Source: Mytilus galloprovincialis (taxonomy: Eukaryota; Mollusca; Bivalvia; Mytilida; Mytilidae). Taken from it: DNA of 64,000 nt. The position numbers were made by a program, and so were the translations under genes. The first letter of the stretch is position 1, and each line of letters opens with the position of its first letter. The notes under the pieces were generated by a model. It ran no database searches. It saw nothing but the letters and a program-made list of their open reading frames with translations, and was not told the DNA's origin. The stretch covers positions 7,445,001 through 7,509,000 of the forward strand of contig NC_134838.1 in NCBI RefSeq assembly GCF_965363235.1, written 5' to 3'. This document shows, one piece after another, positions 26,701-60,753 of this stretch.

Positions 26701-28796
26701 GACTTGACAAAAATTATACATTCCTTATGTTGAAATAAAATACAATTTGAAGCACCGAGACGATTACGAACTCCTTAATATGCTTTATGCACTAAGGAAA
26801 TAAAGAATCAAAGTGGAGGACTTATTATAATCTATTTTTTTGGTAGTAAGAGGAAAAGGCTATTCAAATCGGAAAAGGGGTTAATAACGTATCATTTCCT
26901 ATGTATATACTGTTCAAACCCAAAGCAATTAAACAGCATTTATGGTTTGCTTGCTGTTCTCCATCCAAATGTCACAATTGGGCTTCAATAACAGGGTAAA
27001 ATTCCATACCTACCTGCAATTTCAACAAGAACTCGTGTTATGGTGATACTATTGAGCTTGTTATAACACAAAAACCGTATTTAAAGCTACTACATGTAAG
27101 TAGTAAATATAAGTTCATAAAATATCAAGTCCCAAATTTAATACCTCATGACGATCAGAGGCTAATAGAGTGTCAAAATACAGTAAATACTTTTTAGTAA
27201 ATTTTAATAGATGATTAGCTTTATTTCTAGAAAGATTTGCTACTCCAAAAACAAAATTTTAAAATCAAATTACACGAATATCGTATAGTAGGGATGCTGT
27301 TCATATTATTAAAAAGAGATTAAAAATCATATGTGAAATGTAGACTTTAAATTATTAAACCATAAAATAAACAAAAAATTTCCGGTAAAATTCGGTATAG
27401 ATATGCAGTACAAAAAGCGTTTTCGTTTATCCAATATTATTTGAACTTTTTAGTACACAAGACCATTGCATTTGAAAATCTAAAATGGAGGCAGATTCCA
27501 GATAAAGAGGTCAGTAAACGAGTTCTGTTTATGAAAGACGGGAATAAATATATTCATAATATATTAAAAAAGAAATGTTTGTGTTCTGTTTAAAACATTA
27601 GAGACTCATAATGAAATGTAAAGCGGTTTCTTCCATGTAAATTTGTAAGTTTGAATTAAGAAATATTTTCTATCCAACACATATCACTAAATTTTTCTAC
27701 ATTCCCGAATGATCAATTCTGTCATGGTTGTGTGATTGTGGATCATTTTTGAACTTTTATACTTATGTTATACAGACAAACATGTTCAATCCATCGACGT
27801 TTTTGTTTAAACTACATGGACGCCTGCTAAACGAACAATTTCCACCAAATTTATTACTCCAAAAATTATTCTATTTTCAGCAACCATACGCTTGGTTTGG
27901 TTTTAATGTTGTTACCAAGAAACAAACACTGAAAATAAGTTCACCAAACGTACGGAAGTGCATCGAGTAAGTTCGTATGATTTATATGTAATTTATAAAG
28001 TGATATTAAAAAACAATGAACTAATTGAAATATATTAAATTAGAATGTTGTTATTCATATCTTACCGATTGAGTTGTTTTCTCTACGATTATAAAACAAT
28101 GAAATCTACATTTATCGACTGGAAGTTGTATTACTGATTGCAATCATTTAAATGAAAAACACTTTTAGAATAGTTGTCCTCTAGATAAGACCAGACAATA
28201 GCTGTTCTATAGAGTCAAGCTAAACTATCGAGGGAATAAAATTCATACATTTGAGGAACATCTTTCTTGTGGCTAATAGTTAAAGGTATCCAGGGATATT
28301 ATAACATATTTGTATGGGATCTCCTTAAATACAAAACATAACTTTCAACTACAGCTCTGTATATTTTCAGTCCTTTGTGTAAGTTTGATATACACGACGT
28401 CCAGGAGATAGGTCGTGCAGATATTTATAATTATGGAAATATGTCAACAATTAAAAATCTGACAATACTAGGAACAAAATCCCATGAATCTGCAGGCTAC
28501 AGCTTAGATTTTGGATATTTATATGACAAAGTGACAATGATCCTTGCTGTAGCATTTCCTGGAATGACTGTGGAGGGATCATATCTAACACTACCTGTCA
28601 ATATAACACGTGCTGGGATGGTTATACTATATAATATGACAGGCTCGACACCTGTTGAAGTTGCTAGATTTGAGGGTAACAGTAGATATGGTGGATTCGG
28701 AACACTTGTTATGGTACAAATTATTTTTTTCTCAATTAATCAATATAATCCTATGTAAATTTGGGTTATAGTGATTTCAAAACAAATAAAAAATAA

Positions 28797-32552: not shown

Positions 32553-33957
32553 AGATGATTTCAGCTTTCCAATTGTAAACTTTCCATTTCTAAGTAGCAA
32601 CATTCCAGCAGCACCTGCATACGGGGTATAATATCTCCCAATTGATACGATATTCCCGTGCTTGCATTTCCTATCATGATTTTCTTGATAGAGGGTTGCT
32701 GCTGACAAGGAAGCTATTAAACCAAGAGTTCCAAATGGTGAAGTTGAAATCATCCCTTCGTAAATTTTATGGACGCCATCACGAGATGTTTTTGTGTTCT
32801 GTTAAATTGTTACTTTTAAAATTGTTATATTGTCATTTTAATGTTATATTTAACAATGCCATCAAAGTGCGAGGTTTGGCATGCCACAAAACCAGGTTCA
32901 ACCCACCATTTGTTTCTTGAAAGTCAGGAAAATGGCCATTGTTATATCATAGTTTGTTTCTGTGTGTGTAACATTTTTACGTTGAGTTACCGTTGTGTCG
33001 GTTTTTTTCTCCTATTTTTGAGTGGGAATTCACATTACTATAAGACGTGCCACGGTACTTTTCTATCCCAAATTAATGAATTTGGTTTTGATGTTATATT
33101 GGTTATTCTCATCGGATTTTGTCTAATGCTTAGTCCGTTGCTGTTAGTGTTACATTTTAATGTTGTGTCGTTGTTCTCCTCTAATATTTAATGCGTTTCC
33201 CTCAGTTTTAGTTTGTTACCCCGATTTTGTTTTTTGTCCATAGATTTATGAGTTTTGAACAGCGGTACGACTGTTGCCTTTATTTATACGATGATGACTG
33301 ATGTACCCATATTTTTACTATTTTATTTATTGTGTCTGTTTAGTTAACGCATTAATGTAAATATAACGGAATTTGATGAGACTATCATTAAAGTGAGAGG
33401 GTTAGCGTTGTAGAACCAGGTTTAATCCACCATTTTCTACATCTGAAAATGCCTGTACCAAGTCAGGACTATGTCAGTTCTTGTCTATTCGTTTTGATGC
33501 GTTTTATTATTTGATTTTGCCATGTGATTATGGACTTTCCGAATTGATTTTCCTCTAAGTTCAGTATTTTTGTGATTTTACTTTTGACCGTTATGGATCA
33601 ACCATTTCACAAATGATATCGGATATGTTCCTTACGTCGTAACTACAATCTACTTCCCTTTCATGAATGTGACCTACCGACTTAGACTATTTACCGGATT
33701 TGTTATCACATAAGCAACACGACGGGTGCCACATGTGGAGCAGGATCTGCTTATCCTTCCGGAGCACATGCGATCACTCCTAGTTTTTTATGGGGTTCGT
33801 GTTGTTTATTCTTTAGTTTTCTATGTTATGTCATGTGTACTTTTGTTTGTCTGTTTGTCTTTTTCATTGTTAGCCATGGCGTTGTCGGGTTATTTTAGAT
33901 TTATAAGTTTGACTGTCCCTTTGGTATCTTTCGTCCCTCTTTTAAAGGGGTAATCAA
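32553..33957 (+). mobile_element. Reverse-transcriptase element copy split by a repeat insertion
   Basis: The left part (32,553-32,784) encodes the family's C-terminal stretch (FPIVNFPF and NIPAAPAYG). The right part (33,590-33,957) resumes with the next bases, GACCGTTATGGA, and runs to the family 3' end, GGTATCTTTCGTCCCTCTTT. Between them sit family A copies (32,785-33,589). The element is 5'-truncated and degraded. The reverse-transcriptase type recalls Penelope-like elements; see 40,215-43,310. Confidence 0.85.
32785..33589 (+). repeat. Family A copies (tail type 1, then tail type 2) inside the reverse-transcriptase element
   Basis: The first copy (to 33,291) has AAAACCAGGTTCAACCCACC and ends GACTGTTGCCTTTATTTAT. 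The second (about 33,385-33,589) starts with the same kind of head, AACCAGGTTTAATCCACC and CCTGTACCAAGTCAGGA, but ends in a different tail: TTGATTTTGCCATGTGATT, GGACTTTCCGAATTG and TTTTTGTGATTTTACTTTT. This shows that two tails go with one head. Confidence 0.8.
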
Positions 33958-38256: not shown

Positions 38257-41200
38257 CTACAATTTTGATTGCTGATTAAGTCTATAGCTCTCCATGGCGA
38301 AATCTGTAGCAACTTTTGCACATCCCCAAAATAATGTAATTCCTGATCCTGCATGCCCATAATTGTGAATAATCTAAAAAATATATGGTTTTTGTTTCAT
38401 TCATTTACAACACCTTATTAACTGCAATGCATAAAACGTTCAGAGAGAATGGTAACCCTATTCGTCGGAATTAACGTTACCAAAATACATCTGAAAGTTG
38501 TTACGTACTCACCCACCCCGTAAAGCTAAATGAACCCCACTTTAGCTGGTTAATTATTTTTACATAACCATATGATTATTTAACTTCTCCCCGTAGTATG
38601 TTGGTGTATTATAGCATATGCATTTTCATCATGAAATGTAGTCGTTCCAGTTCTAGTTTTAATTAACAAGACCGTGACATGTTTCTTTTTACATTTTATT
38701 TCGGTTAATTCCGTGTTGATTAGAGATATTTACATGCTTTGCATATGAAACTAGGTTTAATTTTTCTACATAAGGAAATGCCTGTTCCAAGTTAGGAATA
38801 TGGCAGTTGATTTACATTCGTTTAGGGTGTTTGAACTATTGGTTTTGCCATTTATTGAACTTTCCTTTTTGAAATTTCTTCGGAGTTGTTATTTTTGTTG
38901 TTTAACTTTTGGCAGAGTAATGTGTTTTAAAAGTGTAGATTATGATAAAATTGATTTAAGGTAATTCTATGTACTATTTTGCATGCTGTAAAGCATGGAT
39001 TAAATCACATCATAAAACTATTTGTTACGATGTTTTGAAATCGCTTGTGCTCATGGATTTTTTGTTTCTTAAACTGATAAAAATTTGAAACTTACTGTTA
39101 CCGTCCTTCCATTAAAACATACATCTTCTTTCTCCAATCGTATTGTTGGTCTTGATGGTCTTAAACCTGTCCATTCCTCTAATACTTCCGCTTCCTTAAT
39201 TCAATTTGTTTTCATAGTTATTTTTTTGTTGTTATAAACATTTTATCAAGGAGGTGAATTGCATTTTGAGGATAAAAAAAACCGTTTTATACATTTTAGC
39301 AATCAATAAGATTTAGCTTCACCTGGCCCTTTACGAAGAATGTTGAAATTGCATGATTTGAAAGATAATGATACACGAACACCTAAACCCGGAGCAGTGT
39401 TATGACTACAAATGGATTACAAAATTAGCCAAATTCCTCTGTTGTCACCTTTTTCTAAAGATAATCTACGTAAAGTGTGTTATAAACTAGATAAGTAACG
39501 AGGTTCTGACAACTGAACCGATGATACCCCACTGGTCTAACAGTCTTAACTGCATCAGTGCCGACCTAAGTTTAGTAACTGAAAATAACTTTAAAATGAT
39601 TCGTCCAAAGCTCCATTTAATATTGAAATTCATTTTGATCGCTCAAACCAAAATATTTGAGGTCATGGAGTGTATAAATAAACATAAAGCAATATGAAAT
39701 GATATGAATAAAATTAATAAAAAGATGGAGTATAGGTGTTATGTTAATGAGACAACTTTTAACCATACATAATACAATGACGTAGAATTGTTCCCAAATG
39801 ACTATCTGAAGCAGAACAACAACAACAACAACAACAACAACAATACTTTATTTTAAGAGGGTTACACAGTTAGCTATATAACTAATATAGCAATCTAGTT
39901 AATTATAATATGGAGGCTCGAACCATTGCGATCAGTTTCACAATTTATTTTAATGAAATCCGATTTATAGTTGACAGTCTTCTATATTGTCTGTCTAAAA
40001 TCATGAAAACAAAAAGTGTACAAAAGAGTAATTCTGTCATTCTTTTTACCTGCAGACTTGGTATCAACCTTGAACAACCATCCAATATCCTCTTCCTGTC
40101 AGATGCTGTTACATCTGTACTCCAATTTCCTATCTGTGACGTGCCACCTAAAACCACGAAGTCTTTTCTATGAAATAAAAAAACCAAACGAAAAACTATT
40201 ACAAGAAAAACGTAAAATATTATAAAAGAGGAACGAAACATACCAGAGGGACAGTCAAACTAATAAATCTAAAATGACTGACAACGCCATGGCTAAAAAC
40301 GATAAGACAAACAGACAAACAATAGTACACATGACACAATATAGAAAACTAAAGAATAAACAAAACGAACGCCACCAAAAACTAGGGGTGATCTCAGGTG
40401 CTCCGGAAGGGTAAGCAGATCCTGCTCATCATGTGGCACCTGTCGCGTTGCTTATAAGATATCAAATCCGGTAAATATTCTAAGTCGGTAGGTCTCATTT
40501 ATGAAAGGGAAGGGGGTTGTAGTTACGACGTAAGGAACATATCCGATATCATTTATGAAACGGTTATTCCATAACGGTCAACCAACTCGTGATGGCGTCT
40601 GTAAAATTGACGAAGGGATGATTTCAACTTCACCATTTGGAACTCTTGATTTAATAGCTTCCTTGTGAGCAACAACCGTCTATCAAGAAATTCATGATAG
40701 GAAATGCAAGCACGGGTATATTGTATCAATTGGGAGAAATATACACCGTATGCAGGTGCTGCTGGAATGTTGCTACTTAGAAATGGAAAGTTCACAATTG
40801 GAAAGCTGAAATTATCTCTTTTGTCGTAAAGTTTTGTTTTCAATCGACCCTCATTGTCAATTTCTAGATGTAAGTCAAGATGTGAGGCAGACTTAACTGT
40901 ATCTGTAGTATCCTTTATCTCTAGTTCAATGGTATAGATGCATTTGACATAGTCAACAAATTTTGAATTATTCAGTGAAAGAACATCATCTATATACCGG
41001 AAAGTAGAGTTAAAGGATATTGCTAACTACTTATCTTTCTTCTTCATAAGTTCTTGTATGAAGTCGGCATCATAATAATAAAGAAAGAAGTCGGCAAGAA
41101 GAGGGGCACAATTTGTTCCCATTGGAATGCCGATAGTCTGTTGAAAAACACGTCCTCCGAATGTAACAAATATGTTGTCAATCAAGAAGTAAAGCATCTT

Positions 41201-56329: not shown

Positions 56330-56620
56330 GGTATGCGTATTTGACCGAAGAGTTATATGTAGATGTTTTATTCTCTCCTTTAACTGGACAGGATCAAAAA
56401 AAGAAATTTAGACAACGTTATATTATTTTTCAATTGCAACAAACGAATCAAATTCACTAAGTGTTTAACTAATCATGTGGGGGTTCATTTACAAGTAGAT
56501 CTATAATCAAAGATAATCATTTATTATAAACAAAACATAAACAAATAACAAAAAGACATATACTAAATGAATAAAAAAATTGTTTGAGTTCAAGAATAGC
56601 AAAATATGATTAACAATTCT

Positions 56621-57441
56621 TTATTCTATCTTTGCATACTTTATGCTGTAACTTGCGGCATACCCGTTGTCTCTATTAACTACCAATAAACAATTTCTTT
56701 TCACACAAAAATATACAAAAGTTGGAAGCCATAGCTTGTCTTTCTTACTCAAAAGCGATTTATGGGACTTACCATTAGCTGAAATAAAATATAGTTGGTG
56801 AGATGTATAATCGGTAACATAAACATTACCAAATGTATCGCATGTCAACGCCGTAGGTCTTTTCAAATCGCTTTCAAATTTCCACAACATACTACCATTT
56901 GTTTCATTTATTTCATAACAAAATACGGAGCCACTAGATCGGTTAGTATGAAAAAGACGATTGTTTCGAGCACAAATTTCATCAGAATGTGGAACAAAAG
57001 ATGGAATTTGTATATTAAGTGATTTAAATTCGTCCTTTGACATGTTATAAGAATGTATTCCTTTGCCCTGTATGTACACAAGTAATGTGTTGTCATCATA
57101 TTTTGTTAGTGTATAGCATTTACCATTAACCTTTTTAAACTTTGTCGGTCCATGTTTGCTAATAGTGCTTAAATTGAGAATTGCAATTTCCTGCTTTTCT
57201 GGGAAGGAAATAGCTACGTTGTTGCTATCAATAATCGCCATACTAAATGGCTTATTTCTTAGTTCAATTTCCTCAGTATCACCAGTTTTGTGATTGGACA
57301 GAATAAGGCACATATTGTTGCTATCAATAAAAATATAATGATTGTCAGACCATACTGCACAACTGGTAAAGAATGCGTTTTGTCTTTTTTGAACTGTCAG
57401 GCTCTTCATTAAAAGTAGTTCAACATCAGCCGGAACGTGGC
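56621..57441 (-). other. Exon encoding the C-terminal NHL/TRIM-like beta-propeller
   Basis: A single 821-bp exon of 272 codons plus a stop. Blade-like repeats are seen, the clearest being RPTALTCDTFGNVYVTDYTS with HQLYFISANGKSHKSLLSKK. The end, LLVVNRDNGYAASYSI, is the closing motif common in mollusc TRIM and NHL proteins. There is no RING or B-box upstream, so it is not an ordinary TRIM. Confidence 0.85.
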
Positions 57442-60400
57442 CTGTAATTAAAGCTAAGCTTTGTTATCAAAACTACAAATATTCTAGTTAAAACATTTAC
57501 ACAGATTAATATAGCTAATGATCTTTTTATCCTGTGATAATAGATAGTTTTCTGGACGTCTTTTTCAATAAGTAACTGAGCTAAATATAAGTAATTTGAT
57601 GTTTTGATTGTGATCACACGTGTTCATGTTGGTTTCAATATACTAAAATTTGTTTGGTGCTCTCAAAGTCTCTCTTTTTCTATTTGTCGTTTAGTAGTTG
57701 TATTAAAAAATCTTTCAAATGGTGTCGTGATAAACATAATGGTATTATCCTTAGGGTTAATTAGATGACAACTGTCCGTACATACAAAAAGTTAAAGTAA
57801 AACCGGACAAAACTGTTCACATTAAGAGACAAATAGCAAATCAAAATCATCTTTAGAGAGAAGTTATTGAGCAATAGGAAAAATTTGTTATTAAGGCTAA
57901 ATAGTTTCGACTCAGTTACGAATGTGATGTCAAAAATCAAAACAATATCTAAACAACAAAAAGATAACTGATGCTAGCGAAACGAGCAATATCGATGGTC
58001 ATTTGTTAAAACTGATACTGGAGAGTCCGTTTCATTTTCAACATGTTTTACCTTCAACCTCAAAATACGTATTACATTATATTAGTCATGATAACATATT
58101 CCTCACAAATAATTTTTTTTCAAAAACTTACTTTGAATTTCATTGATGGATTCAATAGAAACGTTTACTGTGTCCGACTGACCGGTATCAATATTGCACT
58201 GATCAAATATTTTCCGGAAAAATATTTCAATTTCATCTTTCAAATTTTGTCGTATGCGTAGCGTGTCAATCAAAATTTCAACTACCAGCATAAATTGTTC
58301 CAGGGTTGTCTCCTTAATAATGATGTTTCCACCTTTATTTATCTTATCACACATACGTCGTATGGTCTCGACTATGGTATCCTCATCCCATTCTTCGGGG
58401 GTCTGAACGCGTAAAAGTACTTCTACTCTTTTGTTTTCTGTGCAAATTAGATTACAAAAAGGAATAGAGGAAACAAAATATATTGAAATATTACATTATT
58501 CATCATATATCATGAATTTAAAGTTTTTTCTGAGAAATGAAAATTTCGTGGAAATTATGGTTTTTGGCAAGCGATTGTTTGCAAGAATATTAAAACAAAA
58601 AAGGCAATTATGTAAGTTAGTATTTTTCAATAAACAAAAGTAAATACTGTACTTAGTGAGTGGGAACTAATCTGTCTTTGACGGATAATTTTTGGTATAG
58701 CATATTGTATCTCCATTATATTAGTGTGCAATACCACATGTGAGTTCTCAAAGACATTTTTTACTTCTGATATGATAGAACCAGTAAAATATAATTGGAT
58801 CATTATAACCTTTAACAGCATCTTCCTTTATATATGTAGTGTCTACAATGTTGATGTTGATCTCGCCTGCCTTGGCACATATTTTTTCTGAAATGATAAC
58901 ATAAAATGTTTCAATAGTGTTATATGGTAAAACAATTGCTTTCAAGTTTATACTCTAAAATTTTCATCACCAACATAAATTTCATCATAATCTTAATCAT
59001 TTTGTTGCAAACATTGTCTAACATTATCAATATGACGTAAGTGGCTGTTTAATCTCCAGTGCCAAATCAAATGCACATTCAATACTATACATTTATTTCA
59101 AGTGCCTGAGGGAGATATGAAGATTTGCTCACCCAAGAATATTCATATTTCACGAGAACTCTGCCCGAGGCTAAGGGAAATGAATGTTTTATTCCACTGC
59201 CTAAGCTTTGTATACTATCTTAACTTCAAATATTAGTTTGCATACCGGCATTTCTTCTTATACGCTTGTTTTATTACTACAGACGACATACACATTGATA
59301 AACAGTACGGATAAGCATTGATTATTTAATTAGTCTTTTTTCAACATCTGAAATAAATTGAAACACGAAAATGATATTTGCTAAAGCTATTTAGAAAATA
59401 AGAATTTAGTCCTGACATTTCATGATGATCAGAGGTGATTATGAAGTTTTGTTCGACGTCACGTGTGAAAGTTTCAACCAATCTAATGTTGCTATCAAAA
59501 TCAACATGGTCAACATTCCGTGGAATAAAAGAATATGTTATTGTTGTTAAATAATGAACCTTGATTTGTACTAACTTGTTATCTACAGGAAGACATTGCG
59601 CATAACATTTGACATTTGTTTTATTATTTTCAGTTTGACCATTTCTGCATGATATAGACAATATAAGGATGCATATTTTAAAAATGACAATTTTATGAAA
59701 GAGTTTCATCTTATCTTTACCTCGGTTGTATATCGTTGTCCATTGGTGACTTATATCCTCGAGTTTCTGGATTCCAACTGTCTTTAATTTGTCATTAAAA
59801 CTTTTCTCATGTTGTTGCTATTGATCAAGTTTGGCAGCAGCATAATATAAAATAAATTGTAAAATATTACAATTATGTTATAGCATGAATATTGTCATTT
59901 TTAAGCACGATCTTTTACTGACAACATATGTATATAAAATAGATTGAGGCATCAAAAACAGCATTTAACTAATTCAAAGATATGACGTAGATCCAACTCT
60001 TAAATTCTTTTGTTTCATAAAAACTACTACATCAAAGTTTACAATACTTACATGAAGAAGTAGGTTTATGTCTTGTTTGCACTGAATTAATATTTCTTTT
60101 AGTTCCTTTTGACAGTTTGTCACATCTTTGGCTTTTAAAGTCGTTAGTTCCTTTTTAATTCGGTCACTGTATTGACTGCCTACAAGTCGTGCTAGTCCAC
60201 ACACAGCTCCTTCAATTTTTGTCCATTTACGTCTGAACTCCTCAGTAGGTAAACATTTAGAATTTGCTAGATGAAATATCTCATTGCGTGAATCTTTTAT
60301 GTTTTTACACCAGTCCAAAATAGACGACCTTGCGATAGTATCCTTTACTAATGCAGGTGTACATGTACAAATAAGGAGACAGTTAACTAATGTCAGATCT

Positions 60401-60753
60401 AAATTATCGAGGGAAGCATCTTCCCGAACTGATATCTTGTTAAAACAATACATTTTGTTATTTGTCCCGTGTTTATGCTCTTTATTTATTTGTCTGCCTG
60501 TATTAAACATCAGACGGAACTGATCACCTGTAAGCATGCTTTCCGAATAGTTACATTCATCTTTTGGGCATTGGCAACATGTTTTGTTGTTATGCCAAGC
60601 ATGAAACAACACATGCATGTTATTTTGCAAATATAAAATAAAGTTTTCTTCACTGTTTAGCAATTTACAACTAATAACTTTCCTTATAACGTTCATTGCG
60701 ATATTTACTATAAGCAATACAAGTTTACATAGGTTTTCTTCGTCCTGATTCAT
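56621..60753 (-). CDS. HEPN (DZIP3-type) - TRADD-N-like - NHL beta-propeller protein
   Basis: This is one gene. Supported exons in reading order: 60753-60052, 59817-59721, 58887-58810, 58766-58653, 58437-58132, 57441-56621; a probable one is 59644-59587. Splice phases agree at both ends of this set. Between 59,587 and 58,887 the phase does not close, so at least one small exon or a different border is missing there. The product is roughly 725 residues: a HEPN domain with Rx4H, a linker helix (HEKSFNDKLKTVGIQKLED), a middle region resembling TRADD-N and a C-terminal propeller. HEPN domains bind or cut RNA in many systems, TRADD-N folds carry protein contacts in death signalling, and NHL propellers bind protein or RNA. 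A role as a cytosolic sensor or scaffold is inference. The start is the first ATG after an upstream acceptor, TCTTATAG; a non-coding first exon is likely (see 63,388-63,494). Confidence 0.82.
58132..58887 (-). other. Exons encoding the TRADD-N-like middle region
   Basis: Three exons give KAGEININIVDTTYIKEDAV, an alpha/beta stretch (IQYAIPKIIRQRQISS), then RVEVLLRVQTPEEWDEDTI and INKGGNIIIKETTLEQFMLV plus a charged helix. The strand-helix-strand pattern with a GG turn recalls the TRADD N-terminal fold found in many mollusc immune-type proteins. The match is from memory and only moderate; a structure comparison would decide. Confidence 0.55.
60052..60753 (-). other. Exon encoding the DZIP3-type HEPN domain
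   Basis: It encodes residues 1-234. The cluster C59-C60-x-C62 with C67 in HNNKTCCQCPKDECNY looks metal-binding and is usual in mollusc DZIP3-like HEPN domains as I remember them. LDLTLVNCLL and the catalytic-type motif R156-NEIF-H161 follow, then TEEFRRKWTKIEGAV. The exon ends LLLH/GTAAGT. Both Arg and His of the Rx4-6H motif are intact. Confidence 0.85.

Follow-up and report, generated by a model that had tools for sequence, protein, structure and literature searches.

Gene structure at the locus

The window analyzed in this study is a 64,000-nucleotide stretch of Mytilus galloprovincialis DNA (NC_134838.1, positions 7,445,001 to 7,509,000; C1:7445001-7509000 in our searches of the animal's own genome, 1.385 Gb in 331 contigs), and the gene in question lies on its minus strand, occupying positions 56621-60753 from the ATG to the stop codon. 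Five exons (A to E), with their splice sites and in-phase joins, are present in the sequence of the window, giving a coding region of 2,004 nt for 667 amino acids plus the stop. The phases of the A/B, B/C, C/D and D/E junctions were 0, 1, 1 and 1, respectively, in agreement with an earlier note on this DNA, which had proposed in-phase joins from 58,887 to 56,621 and from the HEPN exon to an exon encoding a QKLED helix. The features of the gene are listed below.

60052..60753, minus strand: exon A, carrying the ATG and the HEPN domain (234 amino acids); donor GTAAGT, phase 0
60568..60615, minus strand: His47, His51, Cys59, Cys60 and Cys62, which with Cys103 (60445-60447) form a possible metal site
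60271..60288, minus strand: Rx4H motif of the HEPN domain, RNEIFH, residues 156-161, intact
59721..59817, minus strand: exon B, a short helix exon (97 nt) containing the QKLED helix; placed by splice sites and frame only
58810..58887, minus strand: exon C, a linker exon (78 nt) with the weak donor GTTATA
58132..58437, minus strand: exon D, the middle domain, predicted RRM-like and TRADD-N-like; placed by structure model, relatives and profile match
58295..58300, minus strand: predicted beta2-beta3 turn of the middle domain, with Glu-Gln in place of the Gly-Ser of the TRADD-N uS motif; placed by alignment and structure model
56621..57441, minus strand: exon E, an NHL-type beta-propeller with the stop codon; placed by splicing frame, relatives and phmmer matches
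56768..56869, minus strand: clearest NHL blade, residues 191-224 of the propeller piece, carrying most of the solved-structure matches
56520..56525, minus strand: AATAAA polyadenylation-type signal, about 96 nt past the stop

The assignment of exons A and D was examined by profile scans over the 584 open reading frames (ORFs) of at least 40 amino acids in the window. A HEPN-exon profile built from 14 paralogues, with the window row excluded, recovered exon A at E 5e-56, the runner-up being a short unrelated ORF at E 0.0098, and a middle-domain profile built from 21 relatives, none of them from the window, recovered exon D at E 5e-11 with a runner-up at 0.12.

Exon B, which is required for the frame by phase arithmetic, is the weak piece of the gene model. 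A splice-bounded search of the closest paralogue, on contig C7, and four other loci yielded no clear counterpart, the best forward scores being 23, 25, 27, 27 and 32 and the reverse-strand scores 21, 18, 27, 21 and 25, and in the C7 paralogue the HEPN exon is able to splice straight to exon C. The counterpart of exon C in that paralogue is likewise weak (52.6% over 19 residues, L028:5305-5361, E 0.04 and 0.003), and Pfam detected neither Ig nor DED, at E <= 10, in the approximately 58 residues that these two linker exons (B and C) encode. Eleven AATAAA or ATTAAA hexamers were found between 56400 and 60052, and therefore the AATAAA at 56525-56520, taken alone, is compatible with earlier transcript ends.

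Paralogues and domain order across the genome

The HEPN, middle and propeller parts appear to belong to one gene, as the earlier note had suggested, and this reading is best supported because the C7 paralogue and, in total, at least nine sets in the genome repeat the domain order. In each of the three domain searches, the next match after the window was found on C7, where the HEPN domain (C7:13690494), the middle domain (13697281) and the propeller (13701239) all lie on the plus strand in the order and common orientation seen in the window, with identities to the window copy of 46-47%, 56% and 70%, respectively. The phases read from the printed splice sites of this paralogue also matched those of the window (HEPN donor 0, middle-domain acceptor and donor 1, propeller acceptor 1).

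The domain order was counted from at least 132 HEPN matches obtained with exon A, 51 middle-domain places, from which 8 weak matches (E 0.01 to 0.8) were excluded, and 29 propellers hand-picked from 292, so that the propeller counts are lower bounds. Of the 51 middle-domain places, 47 had a HEPN match on their own strand no more than 30 kb upstream, and at none was the nearest same-strand HEPN downstream; the remaining four were without a same-strand HEPN, and a HEPN on the opposite strand was seen at three places. Within 15 kb, an upstream HEPN was present at 43 of the 51, whereas 500 random placements gave 0.04 on average and never more than 2. A set was taken as complete when a propeller followed at most 60 kb away and no HEPN match intervened; at least nine sets in the order HEPN, middle domain, propeller were obtained in this way (the window, C7, C9 and six on C13), of which two are less secure, distances of 40 and 54 kb separating their middle domain and propeller. 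A tenth candidate was dropped, as a HEPN match falls between its parts.

The middle domains also include a second branch, distinguished by a Gly-Ser turn, in which the nearest propeller lay downstream within 30 kb in at least 16 of 32 cases and upstream in one, as counted with all 32 middle-domain matches and 58 mostly short-frame propellers of 150. The pairing of middle domain and propeller thus seems to extend more widely than the HEPN-containing set.

Several further arrangements were observed. A dense array of exon-sized NHL-type propellers occupies about 0.6-5.2 Mb of C13, some of them paired with Gly-Ser-type middle domains, with no HEPN among the matches listed. At one locus with HEPN and middle domains (L037), an Ig domain lies downstream of the middle domain (L037:910-1767, minus strand; Ig_3, E 2.7e-12), and thus the C-terminal part seems to be variable across the family. 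At another (L040), the downstream frame (L040:1208-1585, minus strand) was Myb/SANT-like by eye and is possibly transposon-derived.

HEPN domain

The Pfam model HEPN_DZIP3 (PF18738) scored the window copy at 25.1-25.5 bits (E 1.7e-5), below its cut-off of 27, yet it matched all 15 rows of our HEPN alignment, window included, at E <= 0.1 (best 3.7e-7). The domain profile thus supports the DZIP3/hRUL138 type named in the earlier note. The alignment leaves out two loci, L009 and L039, which are included in the motif counts given below. Across the genome, at least 150 places exceeded the Pfam cut-off for this domain when 150 of 711 first-look candidates were scored. A structure model of exon A was largely helical, with a predicted local distance difference test score (pLDDT) of 82; structure comparison of this model gave no decisive match, and phmmer of exon A against solved structures gave none. 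In 12 of 14 loci a Met stands no more than about 12 residues from the corresponding place, and the HEPN is therefore probably the N-terminal domain of the protein.

The Rx4H motif, reported as intact in the earlier note and indeed so in the window, is intact in 13 of the 17 distinct loci read, the window among them. In the 15-row alignment, the Arg, the His and the Asn following the Arg are each present in 14 rows. The Cys/His cluster of the HEPN exon is possibly a metal site; a Zn-ribbon inserted into HEPN has been described in another family, Cxorf38, in the accessible part of Anantharaman et al. (2013, PMC3710099). His47, His51, Cys59, Cys60, Cys62 and Cys103 are all kept in the four copies with a broken Rx4H motif (L028 on C7, L039, L009 and L042).

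Middle domain

Exon D was predicted to adopt an RRM-like fold, namely an alpha+beta sandwich with a four-stranded sheet (pLDDT 88.1; predicted template modelling score 0.78). Its relatives were placed in two alignments, one of the window branch (A2, 19 rows) and one of the Gly-Ser branch (A5, 22 rows). The Gly-Ser turn was found in 22/22 rows of A5 and 3/19 rows of A2, and two of the loci concerned (L039 and L040) are common to both. Profile comparison of the two alignments without the shared rows gave a probability of 98.2% (E 4e-14), against at most 1.9% in 20 column shuffles, and the window and C7 middle domains alone gave 97.9% against A5 (E 3.5e-13).

The Pfam model of TRADD-like_N (PF20694) matched none of 12 middle-domain rows of alignment A1 at E <= 1 and none of the 22 A5 rows at E <= 10, and the same model matched five other places in the genome, three of them above its cut-off. 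A profile made from two TRADD-like_N places of the genome, and hence of two sequences only, gave probabilities of 0.1% against A2 and 0.5% against A5. One of these two places itself retrieved no TRADD chain from the PDB set, so that this route is undiscriminating. Searches of the middle-domain profiles against solved structures and of the A2 consensus against Pfam returned nothing meaningful. Of the structural check that the earlier note had called for, the RRM-like prediction fits its proposal in fold class, and TRADD was not among the matches listed (50 of 1,096 from Foldseek and 50 of 999 aligned chains), an absence that does not speak for a difference. With neither a Gly-Ser turn in the window copy nor a match to the Pfam TRADD model, the domain may be called TRADD-N-like, on account of its predicted fold and its Gly-Ser-bearing sister branch, and its identity as TRADD-N is unproven; the assignment made in the earlier note therefore holds in part.

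Propeller

In phmmer searches against solved structures, exon E matched the designed propellers v31Bagel8 (1.1e-13) and Pizza6 (3.9e-12), PknD (4.7e-7) and TRIM3 (1.8e-4), as well as TRIM2 and TRIM71 chains. Pizza and PknD are NHL-type propellers, and these matches support the NHL type, as proposed earlier, with the Pfam NHL model scoring 13.2 bits, under its cut-off of 20. The absence of a RING domain was likewise borne out, Pfam giving no RING match. Elsewhere in the genome, many relatives of the propeller belong to open frames about 560-600 residues long, which are possibly TRIM-like genes.

Between the window and C7, the ratio of nonsynonymous to synonymous substitution rates (dN/dS) was 0.175 for the propeller (264 codons, dS 1.1); the middle domain gave 0.11 over 95 codons, at a dS of 3.0 that is near saturation, and the HEPN comparison (233 codons) was saturated, with proportions of synonymous and nonsynonymous differences of 0.77 and 0.33, respectively. 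In one C13 pair, the three domains were about equally conserved (55, 62 and 57%).

Proposed mode of action and alternatives

HEPN RNases generally act as dimers. On this background, the gene is read as encoding a 667-residue member of a lineage-expanded family, with a HEPN domain, a short linker, an RRM-like and TRADD-N-like adaptor and a C-terminal NHL-type propeller, and the protein is probably cytosolic. The propeller would hold a ligand or partner, while the RRM-like domain, by protein contacts, would gather copies of the protein or related family members; the gathering would pair two HEPN domains, whose Rx4H residues would form an RNase site, and the paired HEPN could then cut RNA and so stop either the growth of a virus or the cell. 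We incline to this account tentatively, placing it somewhat short of an even chance. It is favored because the domain order is repeated, dN/dS is low in the propeller and the middle domain, and the RNEIFH-type motif is intact in most of the loci read, and further because of the predicted RRM-like fold, the kinship to the Gly-Ser-bearing branch and the NHL type of the propeller. The RNase activity and the immune role are inferred from the family and from two papers on bivalves in the parts available (PMC8195603, PMC9646362): in the pearl oyster, the putative RNase site Rx4-6H is retained by 194 of 202 DZIP3-type HEPN proteins (PMC9646362), and the propellers of such HEPN proteins in C. gigas have been proposed to recognize invader molecules (PMC8195603).

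Several observations weigh against this account. The Rx4H motif is broken in 4/17 loci, namely C7 (Gln for Arg), L042 (Tyr for His), L009 (both) and L039, so that the closest paralogue is among the broken copies; the Cys/His cluster, in turn, is kept in all 14 alignment rows that reach it and in L009 and L039 (16/16). The window copy has Glu-Gln where the Gly-Ser turn would be expected in TRADD-N. The window and C7 copies are most alike in the propeller (70%) and least alike in the HEPN domain (46%), which is the reverse of what is expected of a sensor in an arms race. Finally, the propeller carries a net charge of +6 in the window, as compared with values from 0 to -7 in four other propellers.

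The strongest competitor, possible and yet clearly less probable to us, is that the HEPN domain is non-catalytic. The protein would then be a scaffold that binds RNA or protein, and the HEPN domain, with the constant Cys/His cluster, would serve as a dimerization or binding module. This explanation gains weight because further broken motifs were counted and the cluster outlasts the motif, being kept in all four broken copies. It is countered by the full motif in the other 13 loci, window included, across deep divergence. The sister gene C7:13690494-13702024 (L028, L029), which has the same three parts with Gln for the motif Arg, constitutes a natural test of catalysis: the pair provides variants with the Rx4H motif intact in the window and broken in C7, and the Cys/His cluster in both.

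Some TRIM-NHL proteins address RNA directly. The propeller might thus bind RNA itself and the HEPN domain cut the bound RNA, making the protein a selective RNA-decay factor, perhaps acting on self RNA; the TRIM3, TRIM2 and TRIM71 matches fit this explanation, as does the high conservation of the propeller between the window and C7, which fits a fixed ligand. A strongly positive net charge was however found in none of the five propellers counted, and we consider the explanation unlikely. In a fuller version, the protein would be a self-contained RNA reader-cutter, with an NHL propeller, an RRM-like switch domain and a HEPN RNase having its own Cys/His metal site, an idea that we hold to be no likelier; on that view, the fact that the two closest copies agree best in their propellers would speak for a fixed ligand of the cell, RNA or protein, rather than for a pathogen target that changes.

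That two adjoining genes are present, with the HEPN exons on one mRNA and the exons of the other two domains on a second, seems very improbable. Exon B without a clear counterpart, the weak donor of exon C, seven AATAAA/ATTAAA hexamers between 59.8 and 59.0 kb, and middle-propeller pairs with no detected HEPN (at least 16/32 of one branch) would accord with it; against these stand the HEPN matches upstream on the same strand at nearly all middle-domain places (47/51; downstream 0, other strand 3) and the lack of an ATG ahead of the domain in the exon D frame. A decaying or unexpressed copy is just as improbable: families of this kind usually turn over fast and some related copies carry stops, but all exons here are open and dN/dS against C7 is well below 1 for two domains.

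Other open frames in the window

Two open frames, at 40553-41026 (minus strand) and 32594-32920 (plus strand), have long peptide stretches in common and look like repeat remnants, reverse-transcriptase-like by eye. The frame at 28342-28758 (plus strand) resembles, again by eye, repeats of the FG-GAP or GPI-phospholipase D type. None of the three gave a Pfam match at E <= 0.01.

Comparison with known systems

The earlier note did not know the three-part set as a described family, and the view that it is undescribed was not supported. As far as the accessible text shows, Kaur et al. (2021, PMC8195603) reported an expansion in C. gigas of proteins that begin with HEPN, continue with Ig repeats and DED-TRADD-N and end in a WD40 propeller, so that a bivalve protein combining HEPN and TRADD-N with a beta-propeller at the C terminus has already been published, in a WD40 version. 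The window gene shares with that type the N-terminal HEPN, the RRM-like-fold adaptor behind it, the C-terminal beta-propeller and the multi-copy nature. It differs in that its propeller is of NHL type instead of WD40, that its linker exons gave no Ig or DED match in Pfam, although an unseen exon is possible, and that its middle domain is without the Gly-Ser turn; the related locus L037 does carry Ig, downstream of the middle domain.

With the DZIP3/hRUL138-like HEPN proteins, as described in the available parts of PMC3710099 and, for Pinctada fucata, PMC9646362, the window gene has in common the HEPN type, often N-terminal, the Rx4H motif with Asn after the Arg, and large expansion. The partners named there are TPR, Zn-ribbon, RING, ankyrin, CARD, NACHT, Death, LRR and WD40; NHL is absent among them, unlike in the window gene with its NHL-type propeller. 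A literature search, mostly without subscription papers, found no publication joining a HEPN domain with an NHL repeat, and the matches listed in the search of the mollusc literature held no HEPN_DZIP3 and NHL combination; this is weak evidence of novelty.

The TRIM-NHL proteins (TRIM2/3/71) share the NHL-type propeller, whereas the window gene has no RING or B-box match in Pfam and bears the propeller on an exon of its own. With TRADD-N and TRADD-like_N (PF20694), the predicted RRM-like order of strands and helices is common, as is the Gly-Ser turn in the sister branch; the window copy differs in lacking the motif and any match to PF20694. The gene adds an NHL-propeller branch to the bivalve expansions of HEPN/TRADD-N-like genes and shows that, at 47/51 places in one genome, the exon of the RRM-like adaptor follows a HEPN exon. 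Taken as a whole, the family of the window looks like an NHL-propeller variant of a described class of bivalve immune genes.

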